Shown piece after piece: positions 1-45,497 of a DNA stretch of 64,000 nucleotides; position 1 is the first letter of the stretch, and each line of letters opens with the position of its first letter. The position numbers and the translations under genes are program-made. Where the stretch lies: positions 248,001 to 312,000 of the forward strand of contig JBBPFI010000007.1 of NCBI GenBank assembly GCA_037974965.1, given 5' to 3'. The notes under the pieces were generated by a model that saw only the letters and a program-made list of their open reading frames with translations, searched no databases and was not told the DNA's origin. This DNA is from Dacryopinax spathularia. Its lineage: Eukaryota; Basidiomycota; Dacrymycetes; Dacrymycetales; Dacrymycetaceae.

Positions 1-363
1 GCGACCGACCAGATGGATATCTGTGTCGTGGTGCTCGCTGTTCTCACCATGCCCCTGCTCGGCAAGATCCGGGACGATAAGTCTCCCTCGCACGATATCG
101 ATCTCGCAGTGTGGGCCGTACGCCGTTCCGTCCACCAGGAAGGGTCTTTGGCTGAGTCGAGGATCGGACCAGGGAAGGATGTTGGTTCGTCCTGTTTCTC
201 TATCTTGCTTGACGACAAACCACTGATCCAGAATGATCAGCGGTACCGTCTGCTGGCGGTCAGTTCCAAGCGGGACGCGTTGGACCGACTCAGAGTACAA
301 GCGACCGCCGGGTTCTGTCCATGCAGGATCGAAGATAGCTGATCCCTCGAACGGAGCTGCCAT
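1..363 (-). CDS. Element-borne hypothetical protein, 5' part only
   Basis: An open frame of 121 codons runs from an ATG at 363 on the minus strand to the window edge with no stop. It begins MAAPFEGSAIFDPAWTEPGG and has a balanced amino-acid composition that reads like real coding sequence. It is divergent from the transposase at 620, with about 250 bp between the two start codons. I do not recognise a domain. Its GATC density matches the rest of the KDZ element, so it is most likely cargo of that element. The product is cut by the window edge. Confidence 0.55.
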   Translation of the reverse strand, partial: MAAPFEGSAIFDPAWTEPGGRLYSESVQRVPLGTDRQQTVPLIILDQWFVVKQDRETGRTNILPWSDPRLSQRPFLVDGTAYGPHCEIDIVRGRLIVPDLAEQGHGENSEHHDTDIHLVGR

Positions 364-619
364 TGGATCAAGAGGAGAGCGGGGGATCTGAGAGTAACTT
401 TGTAGTTGGTGAAGATTTCCCTTGCCCCTTATATCTTGTGTCGATCCCACAATTGAACCCGAGTCCCTTCAGATCCGGTCGACACTGTTTAGGTGTTTCG
501 ACACTGTTTAGACAGTGTTGGCTTTGGATCCCTTCCAGACCCTGCTCAGGACCATGCTCGCACGCGCAGACATCACCCATGGCTCCTCTTCATGTTCCCC
601 CGCTCCCGTCTTGAACAGG
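364..619. promoter_or_regulatory. Divergent promoter of transposase and leftmost cargo gene
   Basis: This spacer separates two divergent start codons. It holds a 14-bp direct repeat, TCGACACTGTTTAG, at 479-492 and 498-511. The second copy runs into GTTTAGAC (506-513), which recurs as GTCTAAAC at 12534-12541 upstream of the rightmost cargo gene and as GTTTAGAC at 12710-12717 near the element end. This looks like a shared regulatory or transposase-binding site. Confidence 0.45.
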
Positions 620-3600
620 ATGGATAGCTCAAGGCCGAGGATCCGATTTGATCCACCAAGGCGCAGGCATATTGGCACACAACAATCGACGGACCGCTGG
701 GAGATCGGAGGAACTGTCAGTACTCCTCGTTCACCTCCGTCTGGTTCGGCCTACAAGCAACCGCAAACCCGAAGGCGCAGAAAGAGAGCGAGCTCGCTTG
801 ATCGGCCCCTTCCCTCTCTTCAAGCTGGTTCCCAATGGAGAGGAGCGTCAGCCCTCGCTCCCACCCCGATCGCCACGCCAGTCGACGTGGGAGAACAGGA
901 GTGGCACGATATATCCGATCCTGCAGGCGCACGGTCCGATCCCCTGTTAAAGAACAGAAACTGCAAGGCGAAAGAACAGACACACGCTCGCTGGACGGAA
1001 TTACTGCCGGTCTTGATCTCTGCTCTCAAGAATTGGTCGGTCTCCGGAAAGCGGCATTCGTCATCAAGGCCGATGTTCCAAGATCCGCCGTGTTCGAGCG
1101 AGTGTCAAGATCATCACATTCATCGAGTGGTCTGTATTGATCTCACAGGTCAGTTCCTCCTTCATATGCCCGTTCCCAGTACTAACGGTCTGACAGGCTA
1201 CGAGCTTCATGCATTCGGAAGCTGTCCCAATCACCCGATCGCCGCCTCGTTGATCCGTAACGGATACTGGCCGAGTGCACCAAAACGACCACCCCGGGCC
1301 TTTTCGATCGATGTTCTCGAACACTATCTCAGCCTCTATGACTCCTGCGCGACCCCGAACGACGCCTTCTGCGAAGCACTGATTCGCTCGCATGCTGGGC
1401 GAGGGTTCTATTATCTCTCGGCGGACAAGGTGAGTTATTGAAAGCGGCAGCTATATGAGCCTGGATCTCATCATCTTTCTAGAACGGAGGTAGTCCCTTC
1501 GAAGATCCATGGAGACGGAGCTTTAGTAGCGCCGCCTTCTGGTACGATATCTGCAGGCAGAACTGGGAATTAGAACTGCGGGCTCTGACAGCGTTCTGTT
1601 CGATCGGAAGAGAACAGCCTAGATCCCAAGGGGACACGACCTCAGCTCAAGACGATCGACGGCCCCTAGAGGTCCGAGCGAGCATGAACCTTCGCGCTCG
1701 ATGCCCGGCGTGCTTTGGACTTGATGAATGGGGCCGACCGGCCGAGTCGTAAGTGACGTCTTGGTAGCTCCTGATCCCTCATTGACCCGGAGCATGTAGA
1801 GGATCTGATGTTCTTGTGGCCCTCGATGGAAATCGTCAGCTCAAACGACTCCGTCGAATGGGATCCACAGCGCCTTCGCACACACCACAGATCTTCCTTT
1901 CTCGATCAAAGATCCATGAAATGCGGGAGAGGATGGACCAGGCGAGGGAAGCGGCTGGAAGGCAACCGTTCCATCGATCGTCTAGGCTCGACTCCGACGT
2001 TGCCGAACGCTGCCGTAGATCCTTCAAGGTGGCGAACGAAGACGCTAACATCGTGTCGGATCAGCTCTTCGACATCACGGGAGTCCTCATCATGGTCTGT
2101 CGTCATGATGTGCCCCTGTTCGCATGCGACATAACAACTCCTGGAGAACGTCAGGAATACGGTCTCTCGCTGATCCGTGCTCTCTTGGAGGAGCTTCCAA
2201 AGAACGCCACAATCAGGGTTCTTTATGATATCGGTTGTCAGGTGGATACGAGCTGTGATACCGTAAGGTCCATGATCTCTTAAACGGGGAGGCAGCTGCT
2301 GATCAGATCTCCTTTTTAGTTTGGATATCTTGGGAATGACAGATCCCGCATGACCTTTGCGTGCAGTGTATTGCACGCATATGGGCACGAATGGGCATGT
2401 CAGGTCCTCTATCATCCACGACGGAGATCGGGGTTCGGGCTCACCGACGGGGAAGGGAGCGAGCGAGTATGGAGCAGGACTCGTCGCCTCATCCCGATCC
2501 TACGAAGAGCAAGTGTGCGTATGGTTCCCGACCTCCGTGATCTTACTAATGGCTCGCAGGTGGAAAGACGATCCTTTGCTCTGGAACGAAAGCTCGAGAA
2601 CTGCGGCAGGACTATGAAGAACTCCCTTGGCAACTGGTTCAAGAAAAAATACCGACTCATTTGCACCCATCGATCGAATGCGCTCGCGGAAATCGAGGCA
2701 TCAGGGATGACACAGCGCGAACTTAGGGAGCAGCTCGAGCTGCAGCGTACCGAGCCCACTCCTCAAAAGCCCGGTCAGTACTGGGCTATTGCGGCAGCGC
2801 CTGATCTCACCAACGTTTGATCCAGATTCTTCCAAAGATCTTCGTCGCAAACTCGAACTGTTCAAACGAATGCAGAGCGAACTGGAGAATGTTGGAGGAG
2901 CGATCAGAGATACTATGCAGGCTATGAGCGAGGAGTTCGGCCTACCGCGATCAGCTGCGATATTCGTGCGCCTGAACAAGCGACAGGAGGAGCTACAACG
3001 ATATGGTCGCTCACTTTTCGCTGACATGAGGCTCGACAGATCGTACTTCCCTCAGTTGAGCGGGGTCTCAGTTCAGTTCATGCATTACCTGCTCCTAGCT
3101 CGCCAGGAGAAGATCAACATCCGTTCTAGGGTAGTGGAGCACCTCTGGGAGCTGTCGCGCCTGCAGCGGGCGAGAGGAGGAGGTCATGATCCCGTCGGTG
3201 CGCCGTTCCATGCCTTGGCGTCTTCCTGTCTGATCTGCCATCTTGCTTAGGAACCAAGGTCCGTGATGCTATCCTCAAAGGGTGGGCTCCACGATGGCGA
3301 TCCACAAAAGCGGCGGTTGAACGCTACAACGGCTATGTCGATCTGTTGGAGCAGACCCCTTGTCCTGGGATCTCCGTGCCTTTACCCCCGAAAATGGAGA
3401 TTGCAGATCTGCAAAATCCCTCCGAGGATCACCCACTATGGCAAGATGTATGGTGGCCAGCAGAGGCCGCTCCACCTCTTTGGGCAACCAGTCAGAAGGT
3501 TAGGCAAGGGATCACGGCTATGTTGCTTCTAGATCGATGTGACGAAGAAGAGAAGCGATTGATCTGGGAGAGCGACAACATGGCTCGATGGTGGACCGAG

Positions 3601-4102
3601 GAGATGATCGCGCTCCTACAAGCACAGGACCGGTTGATCGGTACGCTTTAGTGCACAAGCGCGGATTCTGTCGTCTAATCTGGTTCTAGATCCCTCCAAT
3701 CAACACGAAATTCAGAGACAGATCCGAGAACACGATTGGCTTCAGTATCGCTGGCGTTGTCCCCCTTTGTCTGCTAATCGCTGGAAGACGATCCGAGAAC
3801 GAGTACCGAGCACGAGAGCGGTGCAGGAGCAAGATCTTGGGGCCGCTGACCCAGTAATTATCGAGTGGGACGAACCCATGACCGCGCCTGATTGGGAACA
3901 GGACGAAGACAATGAAAGTTCTTCCAGCTCCCTCAGCGATCCATATGACCGCGCCATGGCAGATCTGGACGCAGTGGTGGAAGAGTTGGGTGCCATTGTC
4001 ATAGATGGTCGGGATTTGGAACATGAGTCAGAGATCGATGACATTGAAGGGATCTCAGATCAAGAGAACAATGAAGGATCGTTGTTGTGTTCCAGGCATT
4101 AG
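620..4102 (+). CDS. KDZ family transposase
   Basis: The protein catalyses cut-and-paste movement of the element through a DDE-type nuclease. KDZ hallmarks appear in order. The N-terminal region leads to a 'NGYWPSAPKRPPRAFS' block (around 1250-1310). A CPACFG cysteine motif follows (about 1702-1720). VALDGN (about 1815-1830) probably carries the first catalytic Asp. ACDITTPGERQEYGL and VLYDIGCQ come next (about 2125-2240), then HAYGHEWACQ and GFGLTDGEGSERVW (about 2375-2480), and a coiled helical C-terminus ending in an acidic tail. Introns inferred: 1149-1196, 1430-1482, 1749-1799, then after 2262, after about 2515, around 2775-2825 and two more; all have GT..AG ends and keep frame. I chose ATG 620; an in-frame ATG-like start further upstream is less likely. 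The frame looks unbroken, so the element may be mobile. Exon ends after 2.3 kb are approximate. Confidence 0.85.
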
Positions 4103-4664
4103 TTAGGGAGCAGATCTGGATCGTATACATTGAGATCAGCGATGTACACCTGTTATCCGTATGCGCTAATACAGGAACGTTAAAGAAAGAAAACGGTTCT
4201 GTATAAATCGCTCTGAGCAGAGCCTTCGAGCAAGTCAGAGCCCATCCTATGGATCGAGATCAAGAACGCAGTAACAGGTGTTCGTTCGGTTTACTCCAAA
4301 GCTCACTAGACTTAGGATGCGAAGGTGCTTCTTCGATCGGTTTGGGCAGGGAGGTTTGGATCGCGCATACAAGGTTCAAGTAGAAAGGTCCGCTTGTTCG
4401 GCTGATATTACTACTTACGAGCATTGTCCAGTGACTATGACGATCCTATGGTCCGAGCAAGAGAAAGAGACCACGAGAAAAGAGAGAGAAAGAGATCGCG
4501 AGAAGAGGGAGAGAAGAGACCGCGAGAAAAAGGAAACGGGATAATGCAGGTCTGAAGTTGGGATCTGTGAATCGCATGCAGAGAACGATCACTCATAAAG
4601 GAGCAAGGGAACGCATGTGCAGCTCTCGTATCTTTCAGTTCGTCCCCGGTAGGTAGCGTTACGC
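4103..4664. other. Spacer between convergent KDZ cargo genes; purine-rich tract
   Basis: No convincing gene. A strongly purine-rich tract of GAGA/GAGAAAGAG units lies at about 4455-4540. The region lies between the transposase stop and the end of a minus-strand cargo gene. Confidence 0.5.
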
Positions 4665-5520
4665 CTAGACACTGGGATCCATTGGCTCGTCCTGAGCACC
4701 AGGATCCCCGTGGGTGCTGGTCTGCTGTGTATGAGTCGCAAGTCCAGCATGAACTGCAGTTCGGATCTGTTCCGACAAGCGGCCGATCAGGCTCTGCAGG
4801 GAACCCAGAGCCTGCGAGAGATCCTCAGCGGCCATAGAGACATCAGCAGGTGGAGCTTGAGATCTTTCCTGAAGCTGTGAAGCTGTGACCCACAGGCTCC
4901 GGGACGGCAGTTGGGATGTCTGCACTCGATCTTGACCAACGGATCCACCTGCCGTAGGAGCTGCATGTACAGGAGCCTGCGTAGTAGTGCTCCGGGAATA
5001 AACCTGAGTTGGTTGAGCATGGAGAGCGGATCCAGCAGGGACAGGAGCCGGGGCAGGATCGGGGTGCGCAGGGGTTGGCGTTGGATCGGGATGAGCGTGA
5101 GCAAGGGCAGGATCTGCATGAGCTTGAGCAGGGGCAGGAACGGGATACGTATGAGCTGGGGAGTTCGGGGGAGCACAAGGGGGAGCACGAGGGGGAGCAC
5201 GAGGGGGAGCACGAGGGAGACCACGAGGGAGAGCACGAGGAGCAGGGCTCGGCGGAGTGAGATCGAAAAGACCTTGACGGATATACTCCGCGAGCTCCTC
5301 CTCTGGGAAGGGAGTCCAATCAACGGGATCCATCTCTTCCTCCCACTGGTTCGGAGACTCAGGTGCTTGAGCTTGCGTAGATACATGAGAGTGGTCAGAC
5401 CGAGGCGACTAAGATCATTTGTCAGCTCTCCGAGAACTTGTTGAATTCCATGCTCTTACCTGCGTAGACTTAGGGCTCTGGTAGGGAGGCGGGTTCGTCT
5501 GCTTTGGAGTTAGCTCGAGA
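4665..5520 (-). CDS. Proline-rich hypothetical protein of the KDZ element, 5' end unresolved
   Basis: The C-terminal exon runs from about 5409 down to the stop at 4665. It encodes an acidic stretch (MDPVDWTPFPEEELAEYIRQ), a long low-complexity Pro/Ala/His segment with PRAPPRAPPRAPP repeats, and a short helical end (DLSQALGSLQSLIGRLSEQI). Upstream, a GT..AG intron at about 5410-5460 joins in frame to an exon reading LTPKQTNPPPYQSPKSTQ. I cannot place the first exon; the minus strand from 5533 to 5937 is also open but of very low complexity. No known domain. The low complexity and the tandem DNA repeat suggest a disordered linker protein. Function unknown. Confidence 0.45.
5161..5245. repeat. 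12-bp tandem repeat in proline-rich gene
   Basis: Units close to GGGGGAGCACGA on the plus strand, four to six copies, encode the Pro-Arg-Ala-Pro repeats of the minus-strand gene. The degenerate end copies suggest expansion by slippage. Confidence 0.7.
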
Positions 5521-5948
5521 TCCCGGATCAGATCAGAAGGGGAATGTATGCATACATAATAGCGTACAGAAGCACTTGGAAAGAAACGCACAGAGGGACG
5601 ATCGTAGGGCTTGGCTCGGGTGGGGATCTATTCGATGTAAGCGCCGATCCAATGAGCAATGCTCCTCCACGGTACTCACGACCTTAACAGGATCAACGGT
5701 CTTTAGGATAGATCGTCGTTCCGCATGGCTTGGTCCGCAATTGACAGTTCGGGACGGACCTGCATGACAATTGGGACCAGCTCGATCATCATAATCAGCA
5801 TAATCAGCACGGGCGGTACGACCAGCACGGCTAGCAGGACAAGCACGGCTAGAAGGACCAGGCCCAGGATCAGGATGCTGATCAGAGAACTCTTTTGATT
5901 CGTTCTTCTTCTTCTGCAACCATGTCTTCTTGTACACTGATCAAGGAA

Positions 5949-6354
5949 TTAGGAGGATCGCCGAGAGTAGAAGGCAAATGCAGACGAACTGAAGAAATCG
6001 CAGCCCGGTGCTTTGTAGAGGGGGTTCCTCGACTTGGTATCTTTATCCAGCGTGCCAACGCCCCAACGGGCATTGGCTCGCGTTGTCCAGGAGTTGATGG
6101 GTCGTTTGTCGATCGGCAGAACTTGGAGCGCCTCCTCAAGGCGTTCCGCCTCATTCCTATGATAGAGCCACTCGTTTCGTTCGTAACAGACTGATCATTT
6201 GATCAGCATATATGCGCCGATCCAAGATTGGAGCCAGGTACTTACCAAAGAACTGTTCACCTTGGTTCGGGCCCGGCTTGCGCTGCATGTACTTCCTGCT
6301 TCGTCTTCCGCACTCGCAGTTAGGGCGATCCTCAATACTGTTGTCGTGATCCAT
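5949..6354 (-). CDS. Small GRF zinc-finger-like protein, KDZ cargo
   Basis: Two exons, 6246-6354 and 5949-6190, joined by a 55-nt intron, give a 116-residue protein. The N-terminus contains CECGRRSRKYMQRKPGPNQG followed by EQFFVCYERNEWLYH. This matches the layout of GRF-type zinc fingers (CxCG, a PGPNxGR-like core, an aromatic pair, then further metal ligands and a W/Y-rich end), though the second half is weak. GRF fingers bind single-stranded DNA in topoisomerase 3, NEIL3 and APE2-type proteins. In a transposon such a finger could contact DNA ends. The second exon is open in two frames; I follow the frame joined by the splice. The zinc-finger call is an inference from one motif. Confidence 0.5.
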
Positions 6355-6998
6355 TGCTGAAGATCAAGAAAAGAGCTGATCGATTAGGCGTAGTTGGAAG
6401 GGTAAGGGAAAGTGAGGAAGGAAGGTCGATGATGGATGGGGGAGTTGCTTGCGGACTTCTTGGTCGAGAGTTCAGGATTAGAGAGGGTTTTTATAAGTCG
6501 AACGGTCTGCTAGGATCGACAGGGGTGAGGCAAGTCATCAACAAGAAGAGCGGACTTGCGGCGAACTGAGTCGTTCTAAAGATTATGACAATGGAGGTTC
6601 AGCAAGTCATCTGCTGATCGGCGGAGGATCGGCGCTCCAGAAAAGGAGCGAATAAGGAGCAATGACTCACGCGGACTTGTTCAAGCAAGACAATCCGTCT
6701 CAAAAGGGAAATAGCACCTTACAGAACAAGCGAGTCACGATCAAAAGAGGAGGAGCATGCGATCAAAGAGGACATCGAAGTCATTGTGAGAAGTCTGTTG
6801 AAGTTCGCTTCCTATTCGGAACTCCGCGACGAACCACTCAGGGGCACTGATCAAGATATCGATCCTGCCCAACAAGATAGCGGAGATAAGGAACCCCTGA
6901 GATCGGACATGCTAGATAGGGAATAGAATGTTTGCACCGCGTGAGATCGAATTCAAACGATCTAGTACTATCTACAAAGTTCATCACTGACTAGAGTC
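6355..6998. other. KDZ spacer without a recognised gene
   Basis: Only short open frames with no recognisable content. It holds the probable promoter of the small GRF-like gene (reading leftward from 6354) and the 3' side of the long minus-strand gene. Confidence 0.4.
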
Positions 6999-7031
6999 CG
7001 GGATTATCCCGAACGGCTGATCAGGCCGTTC
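6999..7031. terminator. Two abutting palindromes at the end of the long minus-strand gene
   Basis: CGGGATTATCCCG (6999-7011) directly abuts a 21-bp near-perfect palindrome (7011-7031) with arms GAACGGC and GCCGTTC around a TGATCAG core. The second palindrome overlaps the stop codon of the 7030-10018 gene. It could be a 3' processing structure or a protein-binding site. Confidence 0.4.
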
Positions 7032-10018
7032 AAGTCGAAAGGAATGGGGAGAAAGAAGAAAGACCATTGGCGGGTCCATTTCCTTGCGGATCTCCTAGAC
7101 CTAGCTCTTCCCAAGATAGAGGAGGAAGTGCGTTAGACATGGGATCACCTGAGAACGTCTGGGTCTGTGCAGAGCACTCATTGAGGTGCACAGGGAGCAC
7201 GTTCCGGATTGGCGGAAGGGGCTCTCCAATGTACATGGCACTAGGGCCTACATTACGATCAGTTGACGACAACTGATCCGACAATGTATGGGCCCCTTCA
7301 GCTCCGCAGAGATCTGAGTCATTGATCATCTCGTTATTCGCTAGTTTCATGGATTGAGTATTGTGGCGACAGCTACTTAGTTCAATGACTCACCCGGTCG
7401 GGATTGTTTGAATCTTTCCTGCCGGTTAACATCTGTGCTATGGGATCGGCGACGCTTGCCGTTCTGCCTCTGATCGGATGGGTCTCCCTCCCGGCAGGAT
7501 TCCATCGAGGAGCTGGAGGACGGAGGCGAGGGATGCTGATCCCGCTGTCGCTGGCGTAGGGATCTCTCTCGGAGCGACACACCTCCGGACGGTCTAGCTG
7601 GGGCAGGCAACGCCTTACGCCGTGCCAGCTCTTCGTTATATGACCATCTGGAGCCGTCGACCCGGATCACGAGCGGCGGGTCTTGCCCAACAGGATCACG
7701 TATCGCCACTATTTCTTCATCTCAGCTTGAGATCCCAGTAGCCAGACCAACACACCTTTCGGCCAGCGACGAACGCCTGCTCGCAGCCTCTTGACCTGGG
7801 TCGTATAGGAGATCCATATGGGGCGTAGATCGTCGGCAGCCGTTCGCTGGAGATCCACTGGCATCGCATGGGGAAAGGGGCTCGTATTCGGCCAGTTCAC
7901 AAGGGTGCACTGATATTGGATCATACTGGCTTCGATATGCGGACCCCAGCGATTGTTTCTCGGTACTCTCGCCTTCGGATCGCACAGGAGCATAGCCTGA
8001 TCTGTGAGCGATCTTTGATCAATACGGAACCAACGAGGAGATGAACGGCTCGTACGGAGCAGTTCTCTTCCAGCTTCCTTGATATTGTCTTTCATGTCGC
8101 GCACGCCAACAATCTTTGTACCTTCATGCATCCGCGGGTCGACATGTTCATCGGGTGGCGGATTTGTAGTGATCGCAGCATATTTATGTCTGAACAGAGT
8201 GAGACCGAGTAGAAAGATCCATGAGACGCTTACGTGGTCCAATCCCGCATTCTAATCCGCTCGCCATCGAGGGTCAGGGAGTAGATCGACTCCCCCATCT
8301 GGACAGAGATCAGATCGGATCGGAAATGAGTCTGCGGAAACCCGTATTGCTCACCCCGCGCAGACTCTCGGATTCCCAGACCAAGACCATCTGTCCCCCG
8401 TCGAGCGGGTTCAAGCCCACGAGCTGGAACCGACCTCCAATCTGCGTCTTGCTCTCCGCGTTCGTGAACTGACCACAGGAACTTAGTAGAGGCCATAGAT
8501 GGGATCAGGAGAGACCTACGAGCCATTTGGCGGACTGCACCATGCGATCAAAAAGAGCCTGCCGCTCTGCCGCCCGCAAATGATCGTCCTGAGGGAGGCT
8601 ATGCTCAATATCCCACCGTTCCAGCTGTTGCTGGAGACCGGGATTGGACCGAGCTTCCTGAACGTACTGCCGGTGGGTGGAATCGGCGTTGTAGCTCTCT
8701 GAAGAGAGGTCAGCATAGATCGGTTTCGCAGATCAAGGACATACCACCGGGCGCAAGCTGTGAACGAGCGCGCTTCTGAAAAAGGTTCCAGGCATTCGTC
8801 GTTCGCGCTAAGGAAGAAAATCCACCGATATCTTTCCACAGGCGATCCGGACCGAGACCGTACTGTTCACAGGTGACATCGACGATCGCCTGCACCAGGG
8901 CCTTTGCAACCCTTCGACCTAGCTTGGAGCTTTCTGGCAGTGATCCCTTCGCCCTGGGCCAGATCCGATGATAGTAGGAGGACATAAGGGCGAAGGCTCG
9001 CTCACGTCGATCCAGAGCATCGGGCTCATTGGAGGATCCAGAAATGCTTGCTCGTAACGCTTCATAGACTTGACGCTCGTCTGCGTCTGCGATCTCTTCT
9101 TCATCCTCCTCCTCAGATCCGTCTGCATCATCTCCATCCATGGCGTCAGGGCGGTCTTCTGAGCGAGGAGTTGACGGATCAGAAGGTCGTTCGGCGGGTG
9201 GATTATTGCCTGGGATATCGGTGAAAGATCCGGATGATCCGTCGTTATCGAGCCCTGTGCTTTCAGATGGTCCGGAGGTGATGCCAGCTGTCAATCGGAA
9301 CGCATAGTCGGCCGATTGCCCAGATCCTGCGGCGGCAAGCGAGGTCTCAGGAAGATCCTTTGGAGCAGCAAAGAATGTGTTGTAGATCTGGGGCTCGCCG
9401 ATTGCCCAAGCCTGAGAGCCAGGATTCTGGGGTAGTGGTGTGAGCGCGAAAGGGATCGAAGGCTGATATACGTACTATCAAGCCGGTCGTACTCATCGGC
9501 AGATGATCGCTGGTATCGGAGGACCAGCTACTGTCTGCGGTTGTAAGCAGGTTGTCGAGGGCACTGATCGGCTCGTGGGGAGCAGGGAAGGTGGACCCGT
9601 CAGCCGCCGTCGAAGTATCTGAGAGAGAAATTAGGACGCTTCACAACTGCACAATCCAGGTTACCGAACAGTTCAGTCCAGGAACGGGATTGCTCAGCAG
9701 TTCCCGTAGAAGATCATTCATCACATGATCCCCTCCAAACAGATCAGCGATGGCTCCTGGGCGGTAGGCGGTGATCTGCTCGGAAGGCGGAGGACGAGGA
9801 ACTGAAAGTGGATCGACGTGGAAGGAGTTAGAGGAGAGGTCGAAGTGGAAGGGGATCTTTGGTTGAGGAGATCCCGTCAAGCCTGTGTCTAATCAGTTCA
9901 CGTCCTGGATCCAGCAAGTGAGATGGGACGGACCGCTGAAGGGTACCACTGCAGTCGGATCAGGAGGGAGGTTCTCTTTCCTGCTCCTCAGGTCGGGGAG
10001 TGAGGTATATTGCGCCAT
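7030..10018 (-). CDS. Long multi-exon hypothetical protein of the KDZ element
   Basis: Eight or more minus-strand exons run from ATG 10018 (MAQYTSLPDLRSRKENLPPD) to a TGA at 7030. Confident joins are exon 9934-10018 to exon 9665-9882, a 47-nt intron near 7710-7760, and a 53-nt intron near 7340-7395. Other boundaries are approximate, and the third exon needs a weak GTTCGG donor. The N-terminal half has acidic, serine-rich linkers (DGDDADGSEEEDEEEIADAD) and a helical block (about 8750-9060). The middle (about 7720-8500) looks globular, with FTNAESKTQIGGRFQLVGLN and a W/Y-rich core. The C-terminal part has a basic, NLS-like stretch (RQNGKRRRSHSTD). I recognise no family. A nuclear DNA- or chromatin-associated role is only a guess from the basic and acidic regions. 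Confidence 0.5.
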
Positions 10019-10318
10019 GGAAGATCGAGCCGTCAGAGAAAAGAGACAGCGATAAGACAGTTCAGGTCGACCAAGAGCAGAAATGGACGAGCTTAAGCAC
10101 TGGTTCGAGGAGCACCGATTATACAGTGCGTCCGCGAGGCAGATCCATGATCGTCAGATCTATCCACAACGCGTCAAGGGGGTCACGTGCAGATCGACAT
10201 CTCTCCAGCAAACGATCTCCTGGACACGGTTTTGGGCTGAGCAGTCCGATCTCTACGCGCCAGTAACATCTAAAGGATCCAAATTTCATTCACCTAGCGA
10301 TGCACAACAAGATCTATA

Positions 10319-11036: not shown

Positions 11037-11649
11037 CTCATGACCGAATTGCAGGATCGCTGTGCAGACGATCCGCCTCCCTTGAGGCCGGATCTGTGTA
11101 TATTCCAGCCCAGTGCTTTCCACGACCCTAGATCCTGCACGTTGATATGATGTAGGTACTGTGTTAGTATGATGAAGAATGGATCTGGAACAAGAAATCA
11201 GAGTGATCCGCACCCAATTCTGGAACGGCATGCTCAACAGAGGCTCGGTTGTGCAGAAGGCCAAAATCCCAGTTCTTCTAGAGCAAGCAGTCCGGATATC
11301 GGTGATCTCTTGCGAGCATTCTCTGCTCGTTCGACCAGCATTGTGAACTGGAGCTGAGTGTGTGGCTGACGAAGAATGACCGGAGAGGGAGGTTCGAGGG
11401 CAGGGGGGAACGGCGAGGATCGCACGCTCGTAAGTGCACCAGCGTGAGTTGCAGGTCCGCGAACACCGATCTTTTTTGAGATAAACATTCGAATGGCACA
11501 TGGGTCTTCCGTGTATCACCGGTACGTTCATAGGTCCTGTGGTGACAGTGTAGAGACAGTGATACGATCCCGATCGGTTGGCTCCGAAGGAAGGGATCCG
11601 ATAAATGGGAGTAATGGGTTCATTAGAAGTGCTACGTGTTCTCACAGGA
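11037..11649. other. KDZ interval with undecided coding content
   Basis: Open frames exist on both strands (for example minus 11234-11488 with a helical LQFTMLVERAENARKRSP block), but I could not join any into a supported gene. GATC is still dense. It may hold a decayed gene or an exon I could not place. Confidence 0.35.
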
Positions 11650-25203: not shown

Positions 25204-25206
25204 CAA

Positions 25207-35930: not shown

Positions 35931-36713
35931 CACGGTTTTTACGCGATTCCTGGTTGTGGGTTCCTGCTTATGGATGTTTGTACATGTATCGTTTACTGTA
36001 GAGATAGAAAACCTCGCGAGAACCTTGAATTTACCCCGGATTTTGGTGATTTGGGCCGAGGATAGCCGATCGGCTAAAGTGACGTAGCCAAACGCGCGAC
36101 CCCAACACCGCGGCAGGGGTTCAGCAACTCACAAAAGAGGATGGTTATAAACCAGTCAGGAATCTCCGATAGGGTCCTAGGGTGGGGTTTTCATCGCGAG
36201 AATCATCCGCCCAGGGTAGCGAAATGGGCGCCGGAGTGGATGATTCCACTCCGAGGGTATGATATTTCATCCTCTCCGGGAGGATGAAATCGAGCAGATT
36301 ATGAATCAATTCATACCCTGGATTCCCCCCGTGAGCGAAATGGGATCCATCTGCTCAGGGTGGGGATTACCCTGTCTCTCGCCGCCGCCAAACCCGCTCT
36401 AGAGTTAGGGGTTATTCCTGGAGTTTGGCTAGGGTTGCTCATGCTCTTAAAGCGGCAAAATAACATCGCTTTCAGTCGAATATCTAGCCCGCTTGGCTTA
36501 GTATTTTAGCATACCTTAATTAAGAGATTTGTCTTGTTTTCAGAACCGGAAAAGCCTATGTTTTAAGCCTCTTTTTGGCTATGTGCGGGAGTGGTGTCTA
36601 TCATATTGTTAGAGGAGGAAGGGAAGCCCGCTCAGTGGATAATTTTTGGGTAAACAAGATAATTGATTTGGACGATTCTAGAGCTGCGCAAGACTGCGCT
36701 TTACAAAGCAATA
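35931..36713. other. Left end region of the EnSpm-type element
   Basis: Non-coding. From about 36.1 kb it holds GCGAAATGGG-type boxes at 36218-36232 and 36334-36348, GGGATT/GGGTAT runs and short inverted repeats (GGATGAAAT/ATTTCATCC around 36265-36290). No CACTA terminus was found, so the left boundary is approximate. Confidence 0.5.
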
Positions 36714-37617
36714 TCAGTACTCGCACATCGCATGATCCCCCTGTTCATCGCTCTCATCCCAGCCCGATCCGGAGCCACTCCCCCACCCATCTCCATTCTG
36801 ACCGTCCGATGCTCCATCACCAATCAGCGAAATGGGATCCACGCCTCCGGCAGCTGCAAGCTGCGCCGCACGCTTCCTCTGATGGGCACGATAATTCTTC
36901 ATGTACATCTTGATGAAGTCGAGTGTCGCCCAATCATCCTTGTAGATAGAAAAGACCCCGCATTTCTCTCGAGCCTGACCAGGGTGTGAGCGAGCGATGG
37001 ACAAGCAAACAGGGACTCACCAAATCGCAGATCTTGCCGAGCTTGCTCGCAGGTTGCAGACGAAATTCGACATTCGGGTCCAGCTTTGCCTGACGACACA
37101 AGTCTCTAACAATCCCCTAACGTCCGGTCAGCGAAACAGGTCCCACTCGTTCATACACGCTTACCTGTAACCGTGTATACTCTTCTTTATGTTCAGTCAT
37201 CTTCATCGCTTCCCTCAGACTGTAGCCCCCCACTTTCTTGCCCACACTTCCAGGTGGCCTCGGAATCGCACCAGTCGCAAGGCGGGCACGCTCGCGCGCG
37301 ATCTGTTCCTTCCTCATGGCCTCAAGCAGACCTAAGTAGAATGTGAGACCCGGGGTGAGCGACAAGCCAACGTCACAGAGCGCACCTTTGTACTTCTCAA
37401 TCTCTTTCTCAGCAGCGGCCCTTCTCCCGTTGAGCTCCGCAATCTCCTTCTTCAGAGCTTCGAGTTGCTCGCGTGTGGAAGGTCCCTTCTTGGTGAGACG
37501 CTCGACGTCTTCAGCATTATTCTCCTTGTTGGCCGCAGGAGGACGCCTTTCGCGACGGTTAGTTTGACGTTCGGCGAGTTCAGGAGTGCGACGTCGGCTT
37601 TGGCGGTCAGCAGGCAT
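36714..37617 (-). CDS. Coiled-coil accessory protein of the EnSpm element
   Basis: Four exons (37386-37617, 37165-37331, 37021-37116, 36714-36974) close in frame to 251 residues. The N-terminus is basic (MPADRQSRRRTPELAERQTN). A coiled coil follows (REQLEALKKEIAELNGRRAA), then a second helical region (EAMRKEQIARERARLATGAI), a compact block (RDLCRQAKLDPNVEFRLQPA) and a Gly/Ser/Asp-rich acidic tail. The third intron (37117-37164) carries a variant motif copy, and the exon encoding DPISL in the tail contains an exact one. No known family. Its place beside the transposase, its coiled coil and basic start recall TnpA-type partners of plant EnSpm elements, which bind the subterminal repeats. That parallel is an inference. 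Confidence 0.6.
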
Positions 37618-38044
37618 AGTGAAAGCGCCGAGATGAGCAGGAGTCGTTCGAGTTGAGGTTGGTGTTTGAGAGAGAAAGAGGGGGAAAGCCGTCCACCCAC
37701 CGCCAGCTAAATGGCAAATCGCCCACTCCATGTTGATTGCGGATTGATGGCCGTTTTTTTCGTTTGGGGTTGCGGTACTTGCTAGTAGGTCGTGGTCGTA
37801 CGGGTTGGGGAGCGGCTCCACTAGCTATGCGGTCATCCTGGCCTATGCCTTGTTTGAGGTCCTGATCCGTGCCAAAACGCGTGGTGACCATCATCACGTG
37901 CCTCCGCCTGCGGGAGCACATGACCTAAGGACCTGATTAGCACGTGATCTCGTAACTTACGCGTTTGGCTCCCATTTGGGACCGGTACTTCTCACTAAGC
38001 CTTGTGTCATCTCTATCTGCCAGCTCACACCACCTGTTACGACC
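37618..38044. promoter_or_regulatory. Divergent promoter of two EnSpm genes
   Basis: Spacer between the coiled-coil gene (minus) and the transposase (plus). It contains CACGTG-like CACGTGA/CACGTGC elements (about 37886-37950) and a CCCATTTGGG palindrome (37972), a variant of the element's own motif. Confidence 0.45.
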
Positions 38045-41038
38045 ATGCCTCCAAACCCCAAAAAGAGCCTCTGCACCTGTGGGTGCGAAAAATTGCTCAG
38101 TCGACCTTCCATCTTCCGACATCGCCAACGAGCACTACGATCTTCTCTCTATGATCCGCAGGATGCTCAAAACCAAGGCCGAACTTCCCCTCACCATGAG
38201 CCAGGCAACACACAGCCGTACGAATTGGGCGCCCCTTCTCCAAGTCCCCCTCCAGAGTACGAGGATGGCCGTAGCGAAGACCTCACTCGACCGCAAGATA
38301 ATATGGATCCCATTTCGCTCGACCCGGCTGAGGGTCTCATTCTACGAACACTATCACAGCAGGCGCCCGATTCAGATGCATCCTCCGTTAGCAGCGAAGA
38401 GGATGAGGATATGGATGGGGATTCGGATGAGGAATGGTTTAGAGAGATGATGCGGGGTGTGAGTCGAGACGATGCTGTCGAAGATGGTGAATGCACTGCG
38501 GACAGCTTGCTGGAAGGCTTTGAGAGGGATGCAGAAGAGGCATCAGATGCGAGTGCGTCCTACGATATTATCCAGCTGTAGCTCACACTGATGCTCTGCA
38601 GAAAACATATCTCAGTTTGACAAGCTACGCCTCCACGCTTTCCGTTTCAAGGTGCATGCCAACCTGTCCGTCGCCCAGTTCAGCCTCTTGCGCGAGTGCT
38701 TCCCGGATCTCCAGCTTCCTGAATGGCACGAACTGGCAAAGCGCATTGCGTTTCTCTCAGGCATTCGACCCATCATCTACGACTGCTGTCCGAATTCGTG
38801 TATCAGCTACACTGGTGACTTGCGGGACCAACAACAATGCCCCTACTGTCAGGAACCTCGACTGAAATCCAACGGCAAACCACGACGACAATGGGCATAT
38901 GTGCCCCTGATACCTCGGCTTTTGGCCCAGTATGCCAACGAAGATCGCGCAAAGCTGCTCTCCACCTATCGAGCGAAACGGGTGCCAGGCAACTTGATTC
39001 AAGATATCTTTGATGGTCAGATCTACAAGGACCTCAAGAATCGGCATGTATGCATCAATGGCAAGCAGCTCTCACACCGCTACTTCGATGATCCTCGTGA
39101 CCTTGCACTTGGCCTCTCATTTGATGGGTTTGCGCCTTTCAAGCGTCGTCGTCATACAACCTGGCCAACCGTCTTATTCAACCTCAGCCTTCCCCCCGAA
39201 ATCCGAAATCGTAAGGAGAATCTTCTCTGCATCGGGACTATTCCAGGTCCCAAGCAGATGAAGGACTCTGACAGCTTCCATTTCCCCTTGGTTCAAGAAC
39301 TGGTGCAGCTGGCAAAAGGAGTTCGAGCGTACGATTCGGGAACCAAGCAAATGTTTACCCTCCGCGCCTACCTTCTCGTTCTGTTTGGGGACATGCCTGC
39401 CGTTGCCAAGCTTATGAATCTCAAAGGGCATAACGCTCTGAAGCCGTGCCGGATCTGCGAAATCACCGGAGTACGCGGGACCGACAATCACATACTCTAT
39501 GTCCCACTCAATTGAAGCCGTATCCCGTCTCAAGCCAGCACTCCCGAAGCTCCAGCCATCTATGATCCTCTCCGGCTCCCAATTCGTACACACCAATCTA
39601 TGCTGGATGCGGCCCAAGCGATTGGTCGAGCCAAGAGCGATGCAGATGCAGAACGACTAGCAAGAACCACCGGCATCAAGGGCACGAGTATCTGGCATCA
39701 GCTCGACAGTGTGCAATGGCCTTGGGCCTTTCCTCTCGATTTCATGCACCTCGTGTTTGAAAACGTCGTGCCTCACCTGCTCGACTTATGGACTGGCGCA
39801 AATCGGCATGATGAAGAAGACGGGGAGCCCTACCACTTATCGAAGACGGTACTGTCCGCTATAGCGAATAGCGTTGCTGCCAGCGGCAGTACGATTCCTT
39901 CTGTCTTTGGCCGGCGCGTCCCCCATCTCTTCGACAAACGACATGAATTCACAGCAGAGGCTTGGATGATATGGATCCAATACCTTGGGCCAACCATCTT
40001 GCAAAACCGCTTCGAGAACATCGAGTTCTACAAGCACTTCGTTCGCTTTGTGGTCATGGTCAATGGCTGCCTCGCCTACCAGTATGGGCGAGAACTCCCT
40101 CAACAGCTTCGGAATGATATGGCGAAATGGGTGGTCGACTATGAGCGCTTGTATTACCGAGGCCAACCAGATCGCATTGGTCTCTGTCCATCGACCATTC
40201 ACAGCCTGCTTCACATCGCCGACTGTATCGAGAAGCATGGTCCTGTGTGGGTCTACTGGACGTTCCCTATGGAGCGGTACTGTGGTCTTCTCCAGAGAGC
40301 AGCCACAGGACATAACAACCCTCATCCATCGATGGAGCGCCGTATTCTTGAGCTTGCCCAAATTGAGCAACTCGGTCTTCTTCTCAACTGGGAACGAATT
40401 GGGTTCCCGATTCGTTCTCCTTCCAGAACGATCCCCCAATATCCGAGCTACCCAGAGCACAAGCTTCTCCCCCCTCATACCCTGATCACCTTGAGTGGAC
40501 CGCTCCGAAATCGGATTGTCCAGCTTGTGGCTCGCCAAAGCTTCCTCCCTGAGGTGCCGGGCCCACGCGCACTGCCTGCTCAACTACAGCAATGGGGCAG
40601 AGTGCAGCTACCACGGGGTGGAGGATCGGTTCATGCTGTTGGGGCAATGAAGACGGCCGATATTCGTGATATGAGCTTTGTGAAGGTTAGTCTGCCTCAA
40701 CGAATTGGGAGCCACTCGATTAATCTCTTGTCTAGTATATGCGGCCAAACGGCGGTAATGCTACTGATACTGTGGAGTACGGTCAGCTCCAGCATGTCCT
40801 TGTCGTCCCTCTGCCGACTTCCAACAATGAAGAAGTCATGCTCGTTGCGATAATCCAGCGCTGCATACGATTGCCCTGTCACCCTCTTGCTCAAATCGCC
40901 TACCAGCAGCTTGGTCAGAAGGATATCGTAGATCTCTGCAAGGTGCAGTGCGTCGTGGGTCGATTGCAGGACAGCAGGGGTAGATGGGTGGTCATAGAGA
41001 GGAGCGAGGGAATGTACGAGTACGATCCCGAAGAATGA
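38045..41038 (+). CDS. TNP2-like (EnSpm) transposase with one in-frame stop
   Basis: Exons 38045-38552, 38602-40685 and 40736-41038 total 965 codons. The start MPPNPKKSLCTCGCEKLLSR has the CxC..RH head typical of basidiomycete TNP2 transposases. Family blocks follow: YDCCPNSCISYTGDLRDQQQ, CPYCQEPR, KPRRQWAYVPLIPRL, LGLSFDGFAPFKRRRHTTWP, LFGDMPAVAKLMNLKGHNAL, KPCRICEI and later PLDFMHLVFENVVPHLLDLW. A TGA at 39513-39515, right after the conserved YVPL, interrupts the long exon; the same frame continues past it to YDPLRLPIRTH, as expected of the family. Either this copy has one nonsense change, or a small unrecognised intron or readthrough removes it. The second intron carries a motif copy. If the stop is real, this gene is inactive as it stands. 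Confidence 0.8.
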
Positions 41039-41312
41039 AACGGGCGTCAAGCTGAGGCTTTCCTTCCCAAGTCTAGTACGCATTGATGTAGTGATATAGG
41101 GATTAGTGAATGAAATAATCAACAATTCATCAGCTTTGTATGCACAACGAATCAGGCGCCTGCTCTCTCTCAACCCGGCCATTTGCACTCTGCTTTACGC
41201 GGACGAACATTCATTACGGAGTACTACAACAGGGAAAACTATGGAAGAACCCCGCACATAAAAACCCTGCCATGGCACCCGTTTCGCCCGCCTGAACTAT
41301 GCATACCGATAC

Positions 41313-44300
41313 TCAGTCCATCACCGTGTCCCCATCACGATCCACTCGACGAAGGGGAGGGAGCTTACGAGGTCGTCGAGTGGAGGTTGAAGCCTGAGGT
41401 GGTGGCGAAACGGGTGCCGCTTGCTGTCTGGACTGGGAGCGAGTAAGACGCCGGGTGGGTTCTCCTTCCTCCTGAACGGACAGAGCAACTGCCTGCCTTC
41501 CCCTCGACGTGCTGCTCGAACCTCGAGGTGGGCGGTACTCTGCAGAAGGCTCTTCGGGGCCCGATTCGCTAGCAGGGCTTCCCTGTTTGCTCTCGACTGG
41601 CTCGGCAGGCGCCTTACCTTTCCCCTTGGCCCTGCTCCGAGCACGAGCAGCCTTCGCCTCCTTCTTCAGCTGAAGGTAGTCGCGCTTCCCTGGCCCGCCA
41701 AGATTCAGCTCCACTGCCCAGCGAGGAATGGTGTCCTCGTCGATCTCCGGGAATCGCCAGTCCTCGTCTTCTCCGGTACCCGTATAGAAAAGCAGCTCAG
41801 TCATCGAGGCGAGCTTGTTCTGGTCGGCAGTGAGGAGAGTCGTAGTGCCGTCGAACTCAGCAACAGGAACTGGGAGCAGGGTAAGTAATCGGATGCCTGC
41901 GACGAAATGGGACTCACTGTTCTTCCAGAGCCGATTCTCCCAGAGGCAGGCGCCGTTGACTTTGGGATCTGCGCAGTTCATACAGCGCACCCCAATGTAA
42001 CGGGCGCACAGAACCACACCCTTCTCCTTACAGGTACTGCAACGGCAATCGAGGACGCAGAACTAGAACCTCTGGTCAGTATGGTGCACCTGATTCGTAG
42101 CACGTTTGGCTTACCATGGCACCAGTACCCACCTCCTTGTCGGTATTCTTGTTGCGCACTGCTGCCCTCGCCGAATCGGAAACGACGAAGAGCATGCCTT
42201 CTTTCACAAGGTCGTTGAGCCTGGGCCAGCCCGGAGGCCCAAGATCGTCGACATTCTCCTCGTTGCCTGGGCTTCGCCTGCGAGAAGGCGGCTCGTCCGA
42301 GTCCATGTCGAAGCGCAGCACACCATTGGCAGGAGTAGGGCAGCGTAACTCTTCCAGATCGACGCCAGGCACAAGCAAGCGCTTACTCTTCCGCACACGC
42401 CGGGCTTTGGGAGGACGGGCCTTGACGGTGTACGTTTCCGTGCCCTTTCGAGACGCCGTATGCTTGAGGAAGCGATCCTCAATCTCTTCCACACTCGCGA
42501 ATCGGGTGCCGGCGTTCACAAGATCACCACGAGTTCGAGGGAGAGGCAGGGGACGTTGTTGAAGCTTGTCATCGACCTGCACCGACAAGCGCTCGAGCAC
42601 AGGAAGAGGGATGAGTCGAAGGGGAAAGGGCCAATCGCGCAGGCTCGCTTTGAGGTGCCAGTTGAGGGCGTGCTGAGCGACTGGCACAAAACGCTTGACG
42701 AACTCAACAGTCGGCTTCGATTTCGCCCAGTATCGGTGCACCAGGCAGTCAGACTACAAGCGAATCAGCGCCTATACTCACATGACGACTTATGGACGTA
42801 CCAAGACATCGTCAACCGTTTCGAACCAGGACAAGATCCGCGCGATGTTGGAAGACCGAATGGCCGGCTTCTTCAACTCAATACCGGGGAATACATTGTG
42901 GATCCACCTGGAACTGTAGAAGTCGAGGTTCTCGCAGTCGACCTGGAGCCTGTGATCTTGGTCCTCAGGTACGAGGTCGGGTTCAGCGGGAATCTCGAGG
43001 TCAGGAGGTGTCGGCGAGGGCTCTCGATCGGGATCTTCTTCACCAGGCATGGGCACAAGTCTTGCCATTGCACGGAGAGGCGCGGTATCAGCACGCAACT
43101 TCTCTCGAACTGCATGCCAGTCCACCTTGCCCTCCTCATTTGCCAGCTCGAGCTTCTTCTTGTGCAGCTCCACACGCTGTGCTCGCCAACGTCGGTGCCG
43201 CAGGACAAATGGATTCTTCTCCGGGATCATCCAATCGAGGAAATCTTGCTTGACCAAGCCACCGAAATGGGAGCCATCAAGGTCATTGAGGAAGGGCAAG
43301 ATGTACTCGTCCGTTTCCTGCTCCCGTTGAACCGCCGCTTTGTGCCAGAGAAGAAGACATCCTTCTGCAAGAAGCGGTCCGCGGAGCTCATCCCACTCTT
43401 TGGCCGGCAGGTTCTTGCGGATGATGTAGTCGACGAAAGAATCCTGCTCGGAGGTCAGCAAACGAAATCGGCGCCCAATTCGTTGGACGGACCAGCCACA
43501 TAGCCCGATGTTGGAAATTCTCCTTGATGACCTCGAACGGCGCATCCGTTAGTGGCCAAACTCGATTGCGCATGATCTCGTCGATGAACTGTTGCGGCTC
43601 GGTATATGCGTCGGGATCGTCTTCAAAGAGCTCGAAAACTTGCTTGACAGCATGACGACCTTCAGCAACCTGCTCAAGCACGTCGAATTCGTCCACCACT
43701 TCCTCCTGGAGCTGACGAGGACCTCGAGGCTTGTACTCCCGTGTCGATTTCCGGTTCCACATGCCGGCAATCTTATGTACGGCAATGAGGAGAAGGTCGA
43801 ACGAATTGCGATGTATGCGGAGCTCCTCGTCCGAAAAGCTTAGAAGCTCGCCCTGGTAAGAGTCAGAACAAACGAACGAGCAGCCTGCGAATTGGGCGCA
43901 CCGTAATGTCATCTGCCGTCGCCATCCACTCCTCAATCCGCTTCGCCTCGAGCTTCTTCACATTCCTCGGGAGCTGCCCCAGATGGTGAACCAGCTTCTC
44001 GAGATTACGGTGCACCACTGGCTTGTATGAGCCCTCGGGCGCCAGTCTTGTCGGGCTGACCAATCGGCTCGGTGGCGTCTCAGAGATGTGCGAGACCGAT
44101 AAGGACGAGTTGTCGTTGCAAGAGGGAGTGCTGGGGAGGTTGGCCGAGTACTGGTCCCACGCCCTTGACAACATTGCCGGCCACTCTGGAGCAGTCTCGG
44201 GCGGCTGGTTGCGAAGAACATCCAGGAGGCGCTGAGGACGAGGGGGCGACGGAGCACTGACATTGGAGATGGGCCGGGAGGAGGGGATGACGATACCGTT

Positions 44301-44801
44301 GCCAGTCTGGGGAAGATAGCCCAAGTCGGCGGCTGGGTCATTGCGTGGCGATCGGCTGAGCTCGTCCCACTGCTGCAGGAAGGTGGGGTTCTTGAGCAGT
44401 TCGTCATAGAAGTCGTCGTTATCGTCGGGCAGCTGATCCACCTCATCGGCCTCCTCGCTATGCCCCACCTCTTCGCCCCCCTCCCTGTTCTCCCCGGCAC
44501 TCTCATTCTCGTCGATGTCTTCACCTTGCTGCGAAGTTGAGATGGCGGCAATGGGAGGTCGTACGGACGAGCGAGTTCGATAGGCAGGGGCTTGGGGAGA
44601 TGGATTGGGAGGTGAGGGCGGAGTACTAGGCGGGGTGGGCATTAGAGGACGAGGAGAAGGCAGAGGCGTTGGGACTCGAGTCGAAGTCCTCCTGTATGCG
44701 CGAGGGTTATCGGGGGTAGAAGGGGCGGGCTTGTCTGGCGGTTTGGGCGCCCGTTTCGGCGCGGGATCCTTCTTGGCAGACGAGCGAGTCGTTGGAGGCA
44801 T
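41313..44801 (-). CDS. Large second protein of the EnSpm element, cysteine cluster at C-terminal third
   Basis: Six exons (43902-44801, 43493-43852, 42802-43443, 42115-42753, 41918-42062, 41313-41869) close in frame to 1080 residues with introns of 48-52 nt. The N-terminus is Pro/Thr-rich with an acidic patch. The middle is globular and helical (LAKEWDELRG-type blocks, WHKAAVQREQETDEYILPFL). At about residues 850-890 there is a Cys-rich cluster: FCVLDCRCSTCKEKG, then VLCARYIGVRCMNC, suggesting a zinc-binding module. A charged, low-complexity tail ends DGDTVMD. Introns 1, 2 and 5 carry motif copies. No family recognised. As the largest non-transposase product of the element with a likely zinc module, it is the best candidate to read the dispersed motif. 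Confidence 0.65.
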
Positions 44802-45497
44802 GGTAAGTCGAGTTGTTTGGCGAGAAAGAAAGGTTGCTGATGGGGTTTAAGTAGAGAAAAGAGCTGGTGGCGAGAGGTGGAGTGGTGGTAGGAGACAAAG
44901 GACGAGGTCGATGGCGACTGGCCTCGCGCATGGTCTACACGAGGCTATGGCACGTTGGCCTCGCCACAAAGGCCACAAACCACTGTACAACGCCAACATC
45001 GCTCGGTAAGCAAATATATTCTCTTTACTTTCTATTAAAATCGCACTAAAGTGTGGACTTGCAGTGGCACCCATTTCGCTGAAGCCAAATTTTTCGGAAA
45101 ATCTCGCCGAAGTACATTATATGCGCGCTCAGGCTCAATTAATACTTCAAATTTGGCGCCCATTTCGTTTCAAGATGTTTTCAAAGCATTGTATTACTAC
45201 CTAGAGTAATAATCTACCAGTTTGTTTTGCTAGAACCGACCTAGAGGTAAGACAGAGCTTCGCGGAGAAAATCTGAGGAATGGTTCCCATTTCGCTGGGA
45301 GACTTACCTATCGGCCGGGGTTTGGGCCCTCCGCTCCGAGGCGGATCCTGGAGGGGGGCGGATCCATATCTCGTCAGCGCCCTGACCTTATCAGCTGAAA
45401 GTTGAAAAGCATCCGCAGCCCGGATGACTTTCGGACCCTGATTCGCTGTCAGAGAATGGCCAGCTAACACCTCCCTCTCTCTTCCTCTGTACGCTGT
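44802..45497. other. Right end of EnSpm element and SELO upstream region
   Basis: AT-rich, non-coding. Reversed motif copies sit at 45067, 45155 and 45285, the last about 210 bp before the SELO start. CACTAAAGTG at about 45045 is the only CACTA-like string, but it does not fit a terminus. The border with the SELO promoter cannot be set. Confidence 0.5.

Follow-up and report, generated by a model that had tools for sequence, protein, structure and literature searches.

Three DNA transposons in a 64,000-bp stretch of the genome of the jelly fungus Dacryopinax spathularia (hereafter the window; G000:C7:248001-312000, within 29,246,034 bp on 24 contigs, designated here by C and a number) each presented an excess of a short DNA word of its own, namely GATC in a KDZ element, ACCAGT (ACTGGT when read on the other strand) in a Harbinger-type element, and boxes of the GCGAAATGGG type in an EnSpm/CACTA element. 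Selection appears to act on the DNA words themselves: they occur in all codon phases and on both strands, their density is kept despite turnover of positions, and GATC is evenly spaced. An original prediction, made from the letters of this window, had proposed both the excess and selection at the DNA level; the excess exceeded host-based counts as well as codon-preserving shuffles in each element, and the pattern recurred in relatives and in further element families. The most surprising features are that the GATC array is coextensive with the KDZ element and evenly spaced, that sites turn over at a kept density, and that exact matches of the long words are confined to single element families. 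Our tentative reading, to which as a whole we give slightly less than an even chance, is that these words form element-wide arrays of binding sites for an element-specific, likely self-encoded protein, most likely with an anti-silencing function. This interpretation is plausible but unproved with regard to both the reader and the function.

Words were counted in the window and its left flank, with expectations taken from 45,371 bp of host sequence, and synonymous codons were shuffled within open frames (300 shuffles per word set; frames were defined stop-to-stop and are uncurated as genes). DNA transposons make up 0.12% of the published D. spathularia assembly (PMC11066560). A host protein, Svf1, was most similar to Dacrymycetes sequences, with 63–64% to those of Calocera cornea and Dacryopinax primogenitus. 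A search of a plasmid collection returned no match.

GATC Array of the KDZ Element

GATC occurred 296 times in the KDZ element (19.2/kb; 70.8 expected) and near expectation in the other two elements (24 versus 17.9 expected in the Harbinger region; 44 versus 42.6 expected in EnSpm). Counted per 500 bp, its density climbed at the left terminal inverted repeat (TIR) and dropped at the right TIR; in a diverged copy on C18, it likewise climbed at the left TIR and dropped near 289.9k, where a right TIR was looked for and not found. In the open frames of the element, 109 GATC sites were observed, compared to 64.5 ± 4.9 (maximum 78) after codon shuffling; these sites were spread over all three codon phases (37, 26, and 46), at a density (109 in 5,931 bp) similar to that of the whole element (296 in 15,437 bp). 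No longer motif was apparent, as the 10 flanking bases on each side carried no information. A second-order Markov background built from the element's own triplets gave 217 of the 296 sites, indicating that much of the excess is common to overlapping words; GAAC, ATCG, and ATCC were likewise raised.

The GATC sites were also more evenly spaced than expected by chance. Gap variation was 0.71 in the C7 copy (0.92 by chance; lower than in all 5000 simulations) and 0.69 in the C18 copy, likewise, and among the words with at least 100 sites (74 in C7 and 40 in C18) GATC presented the lowest relative gap variation in both copies. Gaps longer than 192 bp numbered zero in C7 (6.1 expected) and one in C18 (6.0 expected), and gaps shorter than 12 bp numbered 25 in C7 (44.8 expected) and 12 in C18 (25.3 expected); GATC in host sequence was not evenly spaced. 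The lower limit may correspond to a protein footprint and the upper limit to approximately one nucleosome.

When the C7 and C18 copies were aligned (71% identity), GATC was the most conserved of 136 4-mers (50% kept, compared to a mean of 31.9%), with 93 sites common to the two copies out of 208 and 187, respectively. In comparisons of C7 with copies at 56–57% identity (C4, C17, and C3:1.2M), GATC ranked 19/133, 43/132, and 27/130, only somewhat above the mean, and these copies still hold 45, 49, and 52 GATC sites in ~3.4 kb. As a separate observation, the C7 and C18 copies are 86.5% identical over the left 1.8 kb (L047:7367-9148 versus L048:3736-5535) but only 71.6% identical over the next 4.6 kb, a step that hints at exchange or at stronger constraint on the left gene.

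The KDZ element measures 15,437 bp (C7:245367-260803, corresponding to window -2633 to 12803), as delimited by its TIR pair and GATC profile; its left end is located 2,633 bp to the left of the window, and its right 12.8 kb occupies window 1..12803. The right TIR (188 bp; 12616..12803) is 98.4% identical to the left TIR beyond the window and is followed by an 8-bp target-site duplication (GGCTGACG; 12804..12811), with the identical 8 bases beside the left TIR; KDZ transposons have target-site duplications of 8 bp. On the plus strand, the element encodes a CxC1 cysteine cluster frame (512..1441; Pfam PF18802, E = 2.8e-07) and the transposase core in two frames (1786..2820; Pfam PF18758, E = 1.7e-26 and 4.6e-17). 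The KDZ transposase domain, the CxC cluster, the TIRs, and the 8-bp duplication are all features of this class.

ACCAGT Sites of the Harbinger-Type Element

The Harbinger-type element region (23601..27500; 3.9 kb) contained 25 ACCAGT/ACTGGT sites between 23883 and 27333 (0.9 expected), 12 on one strand and 13 on the other. ACCAGT occurred seven times in the KDZ element (3.7 expected) and seven times in EnSpm, where it was mildly raised (2.3 expected). In the Harbinger open frames, 13 sites were observed, compared to 3.1 ± 1.5 (maximum 8) after codon shuffling. A related copy on C10 (61% identity, at which the alignment is uncertain) contained 19 sites, of which three were common to the 25 of the C7 copy, and the conservation of ACCAGT between the two was unremarkable (rank 10/15), suggesting that density has been kept in this family and position has not. 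A Harbinger relative with 29% protein identity still carries the word ACCAG.

The transposase frames of this element (24119..25203, plus strand) gave a Pfam DDE_Tnp_4 match (E = 1.2e-25; frame 24589-25203) and have relatives. PIF/Harbinger elements carry short TIRs and a 3-bp duplication; a TIR scan of the window copy yielded no convincing pair and no exact ends, and the element designated HarbB at C1:2.69M has a 106-bp TIR.

Boxes of the EnSpm Element

The EnSpm/CACTA element (9,292 bp; 36163..45454) is 97.3% identical over its full length to G000:C5:2031258-2040549 and is flanked by 2-bp duplications (AA at the C7 copy and TT at the C5 copy). GCGAAATGGG occurred seven times in this element (0.2 expected from host sequence; 0.03 from the genome rate, given 119 in the genome), never in the KDZ element or the Harbinger region, and once in host sequence; GAAATGGG occurred 10 times in the element and once in host sequence. 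Among the places listed, GCGAAATGGG clusters only in two copies of one EnSpm family. Codon shuffling of the EnSpm open frames supported the excess, with four CGAAATGG observed versus 0.8 ± 0.7 (maximum 2). Three boxes (GCGAAATGGG, plus strand; 36219..36836) start at 36219, 36335, and 36827 near the left end, and three on the minus strand (45070..45295) start at 45070, 45159 (variant ACGAAATGGG), and 45286 near the right end; four more are internal (38309..43271), consisting of GCGAAATGGG at 38309 (minus) and 40122 (plus) and GAAATGGG-bearing variants at 41904 and 43264 (both plus). A perfect copy of GCGAAATGGG on the minus strand (45691..45700) is located 237 bp outside the element; because the element ends at 45454, this box falls in a host SelO frame. 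The expectation that each motif stays inside its own element is borne out by GATC, which respects the KDZ limits, but not by this one of the 11 GAAATGGG boxes. Likewise, "saturated", the term originally applied to all three elements, is apt for GATC in KDZ but not for EnSpm, since its boxes are sparse and six of 10 are near the ends.

The tnp2 transposase frames (37937..40853, plus strand; Pfam Transposase_21, E = 5.7e-22 for frame 38592-39515) and the repeated words in inverted orientation near both ends are features of the EnSpm class, and the boxes mostly look like classical TnpA-type subterminal sites, plus a few internal ones. Considered by themselves, these boxes are probably just that, i.e., CACTA subterminal repeats of the classical kind, with a TnpA-like protein as their reader and nothing more, as suggested by the plus-strand and minus-strand triplets near the left and right ends, by the combination of tnp2 with a second gene region, and by the 2-bp duplication. 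Against this explanation, four of the 10 boxes are internal, and long words are spread over ~8 kb at two other EnSpm-type loci.

Relatives and Further Word Families

Motif scores were obtained for 29 transposase loci and two TET-like loci (drawn from 46 loci, with overlapping or near-identical ones excluded) and compared with those of 26 host windows (3.4 kb each, taken from a pool of 67 kb of host sequence). Thirteen of the 29 transposase loci outscored every host window: five KDZ loci (GATC), six Harbinger loci (four with ACCAG and two with GATCA), and two EnSpm loci, with the words CACATCAC and AACTACAT. For six loci, a single host window scored higher (KDZ C5, Harbinger C8, and, at 54–55% identity, the four EnSpm loci C7:1.27M, C14 and C8 with CAAG, and C2:1.24M with GCTGA); this also applied to the TET-like C13 locus. 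The remaining 10 were outscored by at least three host windows; these comprise KDZ C1:2.2M, C1:708k, C15, and C3:909k as well as six EnSpm loci, i.e., four relatives at 52–55% identity together with EnSpm C7 and C5, whose 3.4-kb cores contain few boxes. For most of these EnSpm elements, the sequence covered stops short of the ends. A score based on each element's own composition left the GATC elements unflagged and placed KDZ C5 above all host windows. Enrichment in relatives of the window elements is hence partial: GATC was in excess at five of 10 KDZ loci, and four of seven loci of the Harbinger type carried ACCAG, but four other KDZ loci showed no clear motif, and the rest of the KDZ and Harbinger loci had a different word. 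Distant KDZ relatives showed no GATC excess.

Two further loci with Transposase_21 matches, L056 (C10:929001-939000) and L057 (C2:739001-749000), contain ~20-base words that recur over ~8 kb. The 15-mer CAGCACAACTACATC had 36 matches in the genome, all located in C2:740-750k (13), C3:378-388k (11), and C12:885-894k (12), with no match for the reversed control, and its spacing in the C3 and C12 stretches agrees with that in the C2 element. The six genome matches of GTCCGGYANNNTCACATCAC all fell in one 9.2-kb stretch (C10:932-941k; control, 0). As both patterns were derived from these elements, the informative part of this result is their absence elsewhere. Arrays were more even than random in Harbinger C1 (P = 0.004) and L057 (P = 0.02), and not in L056.

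Another word, CATGATCATG, forms clusters in KDZ C5, Harbinger C1, and Harbinger C8 and is enriched in Harbinger C10; genome-wide, it was found at 110 places, compared to 30 for the control, with many single places outside clusters among the matches listed. In KDZ C5, CATGAT hexamers form 20 clusters, as short tandem arrays, over 12 kb. Cluster spacing in this element (L051/L055; C5:2011842-2023712) is 424–671 bp for the first 13 intervals and 281–2393 bp later, compared to 291–648 bp in Harbinger L052 (C1:2692001-2700000). Within the cluster-bearing region of KDZ C5, larger CATGAT clusters are missing from a 2.4-kb stretch (10910-13260 in the joined L051/L055 coordinates), which may represent an insertion or the loss of an array. 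Judged by eye, the L052 clusters at 3215-3240, 4134-4155, and 4555-4570 sit in introns (GT...AG) of Harbinger genes. At L053 (approximately C1:1702840-1703385), two CATGAT cluster groups are found within a short stretch, and two or three short frames nearby gave weak BLASTP matches (E ~2e-4 to 6e-4) to left-side KDZ C5 frames; this locus may be a remnant or a non-autonomous relative.

The marking of body DNA with private, element-wide arrays, in the densest case spaced to leave hardly any stretch the size of a nucleosome without a site, might be a strategy common to fungal cut-and-paste transposons in general, with words that arose or switched several times in KDZ, Harbinger, and EnSpm and are read by different accessory proteins; we give this generalization roughly one chance in three. 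The idea that the motifs are private is supported by the different words per family and is limited by the CATGATCATG clusters in both KDZ and Harbinger elements.

Candidate Readers and Proposed Mechanism

All three elements contain a second gene region on the strand opposite to the transposase. In the KDZ element, candidate reader genes, all on the minus strand, include a frame without a known domain (7709..8251), whose counterparts in the C18 copy are conserved, a frame with a WNLFQ stretch, without a Pfam hit or an identified relative (8710..9474), and two further frames (10953-11669 and 11682-12512), the latter also with WNLFQ; WNLFQ/WNIWQ stretches could be aligned. The WNLFQ stretch may resemble the divergent HMG proteins reported with KDZ elements; it gave no Pfam hit and a low-confidence fold. 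The second Harbinger gene region (25210..26544, minus strand; 26092-26544, 25749-26072, and 25210-25473) is the candidate ACCAGT reader and, judged by eye, may encode a Myb/SANT-like protein, and its spliced peptides gave no Pfam Myb hit. In EnSpm, the second gene region (41313..44846, minus strand), without a known domain, is a candidate TnpA-like reader. With regard to a VANC-family protein, the accessory frames gave no convincing Pfam hit of any kind, with the Pfam coverage of VANC itself unchecked. A common accessory protein behind the CATGAT word was also considered and was rejected, as BLASTP of KDZ C5 frames (up to C5:2019000) against Harbinger C1 gave no match at E 1e-3.

Under the proposed mechanism, each motif would represent dispersed sites bound by a protein that recognizes a specific DNA sequence and acts along the element, most likely encoded by the element itself in the opposite-strand accessory gene. 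Selection would maintain site density and, for GATC, would disfavor gaps below ~12 bp and above ~190 bp, which would leave hardly any nucleosome-sized stretch without a site. Most likely, the sites would serve to tag the chromatin of the element as its own and to preserve its capacity for expression in the face of silencing by DNA methylation, as with Arabidopsis VANC. We infer all three steps, i.e., the reading of the sites by a protein, the origin of this protein from the element itself, and the anti-silencing effect.

CpG Mutation Record and Evidence against the Proposed Mechanism

Five DNA methylase (PF00145) matches above the family cut-off were found at C7:158032-163878, ~85–90 kb to the left of the window. 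Between copies of motif-positive elements, transitions were located at CpG in 15/16 (KDZ C7/C6), 19/24 (KDZ C18/C3), 25/26 (HarbB C10/C1), 37/71 (HarbA C10/C3), and 58/134 (EnSpm C7/C5) cases; the corresponding fractions for motif-negative pairs were 11/15 (KDZ C1/C13), 32/52 (EnSpm C7/C14), 29/57 (C7/C8), 34/56 (C14/C8), and 15/25 (C10/C9), with 46/125 for a more distant EnSpm pair (C10:714k/C2). The KDZ C4/C17 pair (16% diverged) presented no CpG excess over 849 columns. Per site, CpG transitions exceeded other C/G transitions ~40-, 10-, 85-, 4.6-, and 2.1-fold in the motif-positive pairs and ~3- to 6-fold in five motif-negative pairs. The excess of CpG transitions in these copies indicates that the elements have been exposed to a CpG-directed process.

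Several results weigh against arrays read by a self-encoded, anti-silencing protein. The motif has not consistently spared elements from CpG transitions; such transitions were not significantly rarer near motifs (four pairs, 13 comparisons), and no protection was seen near EnSpm boxes, where 18/58 CpG transitions fell within 200 bp, compared to 188/645 CpGs. Anti-silencing, as initially proposed, has accordingly left no sign of protection around motifs in the mutation record, which is evidence against constant local protection and says little on a protein acting only during element activity. The proposal also includes a motif reader encoded by each element; none was identified by Pfam, with no convincing hit in the accessory frames of the three elements, by two protein searches with KDZ accessory frames, which found no relatives, or by folding, as the sole accessory fold (three-sequence input) was of low confidence (mean pLDDT 42) and not usable. 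Furthermore, 16/29 transposase loci failed to exceed all host windows, many elements being without a clear motif. Spacing was not significantly even for ACCAGT or for the KDZ C5 clusters as a whole (P = 0.11–0.25). Finally, CATGATCATG clusters are common to KDZ and Harbinger elements, so a host reader fits them equally well and "private" is not absolute.

Alternative Explanations and Implications

The arrays may instead serve transposition, binding an element protein that compacts the element, joins its ends, or blocks self-insertion, with silencing unaffected. Even GATC coverage without long gaps, sites on both strands, and the inverted subterminal boxes of EnSpm would suit such a function, and TnpA binds subterminal repeats and is required for transposition (PMC2613891). 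A 4-kb Harbinger element, however, needs little compaction and yet has a dense array, and known TnpA sites cluster at element ends, whereas GATC and ACCAGT fill the element body; we consider this explanation unlikely, at about one chance in five. A host transcription or chromatin protein could also bind these words and be exploited by the elements, e.g., through many weak enhancers. The CATGATCATG word common to KDZ C5 and Harbinger C1, C8, and C10 points in this direction, as does the BLASTP result for the KDZ C5 and Harbinger C1 frames. On the other hand, at least six different words are found in one genome, and since exact matches of CAGCACAACTACATC and GTCCGGYANNNTCACATCAC are confined to element stretches, no host site elsewhere uses these exact words; a host reader seems improbable, somewhat more so than a transposition function. 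An artefact of base composition, codon use, simple repeats, or mutation bias is highly improbable and was rejected on the basis of codon shuffles, codon phases, site conservation, turnover, gap evenness, and host-based counts, together with the reasoning that CpG deamination creates no GATC, with the own-triplet background (and the overlapping words raised with GATC) and the own-composition score as a reservation.

If the arrays are indeed read by element-encoded proteins, fungal transposons would carry a private code for self-labelling that spans superfamilies and runs through coding sequence; private self-labelling as such is already known from one plant family. In that case, the elements would yield predictions on the protein partner of each word and on the copies expected to be hypomethylated, and an edible fungus with a sequenced genome would allow tests of how fungal DNA transposons handle methylation. 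Long words without an exact match elsewhere in the genome may also be useful as addressable DNA labels. Among the papers listed by literature searches, judged by their titles and the opening lines of their abstracts, none describes such motif arrays in fungal elements.

Comparison with Known Systems

The Harbinger-type element combines a DDE_Tnp_4 transposase with a second gene region in the opposite orientation, as does the PIF/Harbinger two-gene system. The known sites of the PIF/Harbinger Myb-like protein are few and near the ends, whereas the 25 sites found here fill 3.5 kb. Fungal DNA transposons that bear TET/JBP genes include KDZ, Harbinger, and EnSpm elements in Basidiomycota, and these genes have been proposed to assist in escape from methylation (Kojima 2025, PMC12730594). 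By contrast, no TET/JBP gene was found inside the elements studied here; the four weak matches in the genome, all below the cut-off, are located elsewhere (C8:998044, C13:1016521, C8:499943, and C8:761543).

With the CACTA TnpA system (TNP1 of Tam1; PMC2613891), the EnSpm element shares tnp2, inverted words near the ends, family-specific words, and a second protein. It differs in that boxes are also internal, and two EnSpm-type loci carry ~20-base words over ~8 kb.

A close parallel to a private, dense word comes from Arabidopsis VANDAL elements, for which Hosaka et al. 2017 (PMC5735166) describe that VANC21 binds YAGTATTAY, a motif enriched in its own VANDAL family, mainly in non-coding sequence, and lowers methylation in that family. 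As in D. spathularia, a short word is enriched in one family and rare in others, related families have different words, and density matters. The VANDAL motifs are described there as lying mainly outside coding regions, densely packed and uniformly oriented, often as tandem repeats, whereas GATC and ACCAGT are also found in open frames, on both strands, and with even (GATC) or scattered spacing. The transposases also differ, being KDZ, DDE_Tnp_4 (Harbinger), and Transposase_21 (EnSpm) here rather than MULE, and no VANC-like protein was identified in these elements. Hence, the fungal elements resemble the VANC system in their private, dense words, and differ from it in transposase type and layout; their mode of action may nonetheless be similar.

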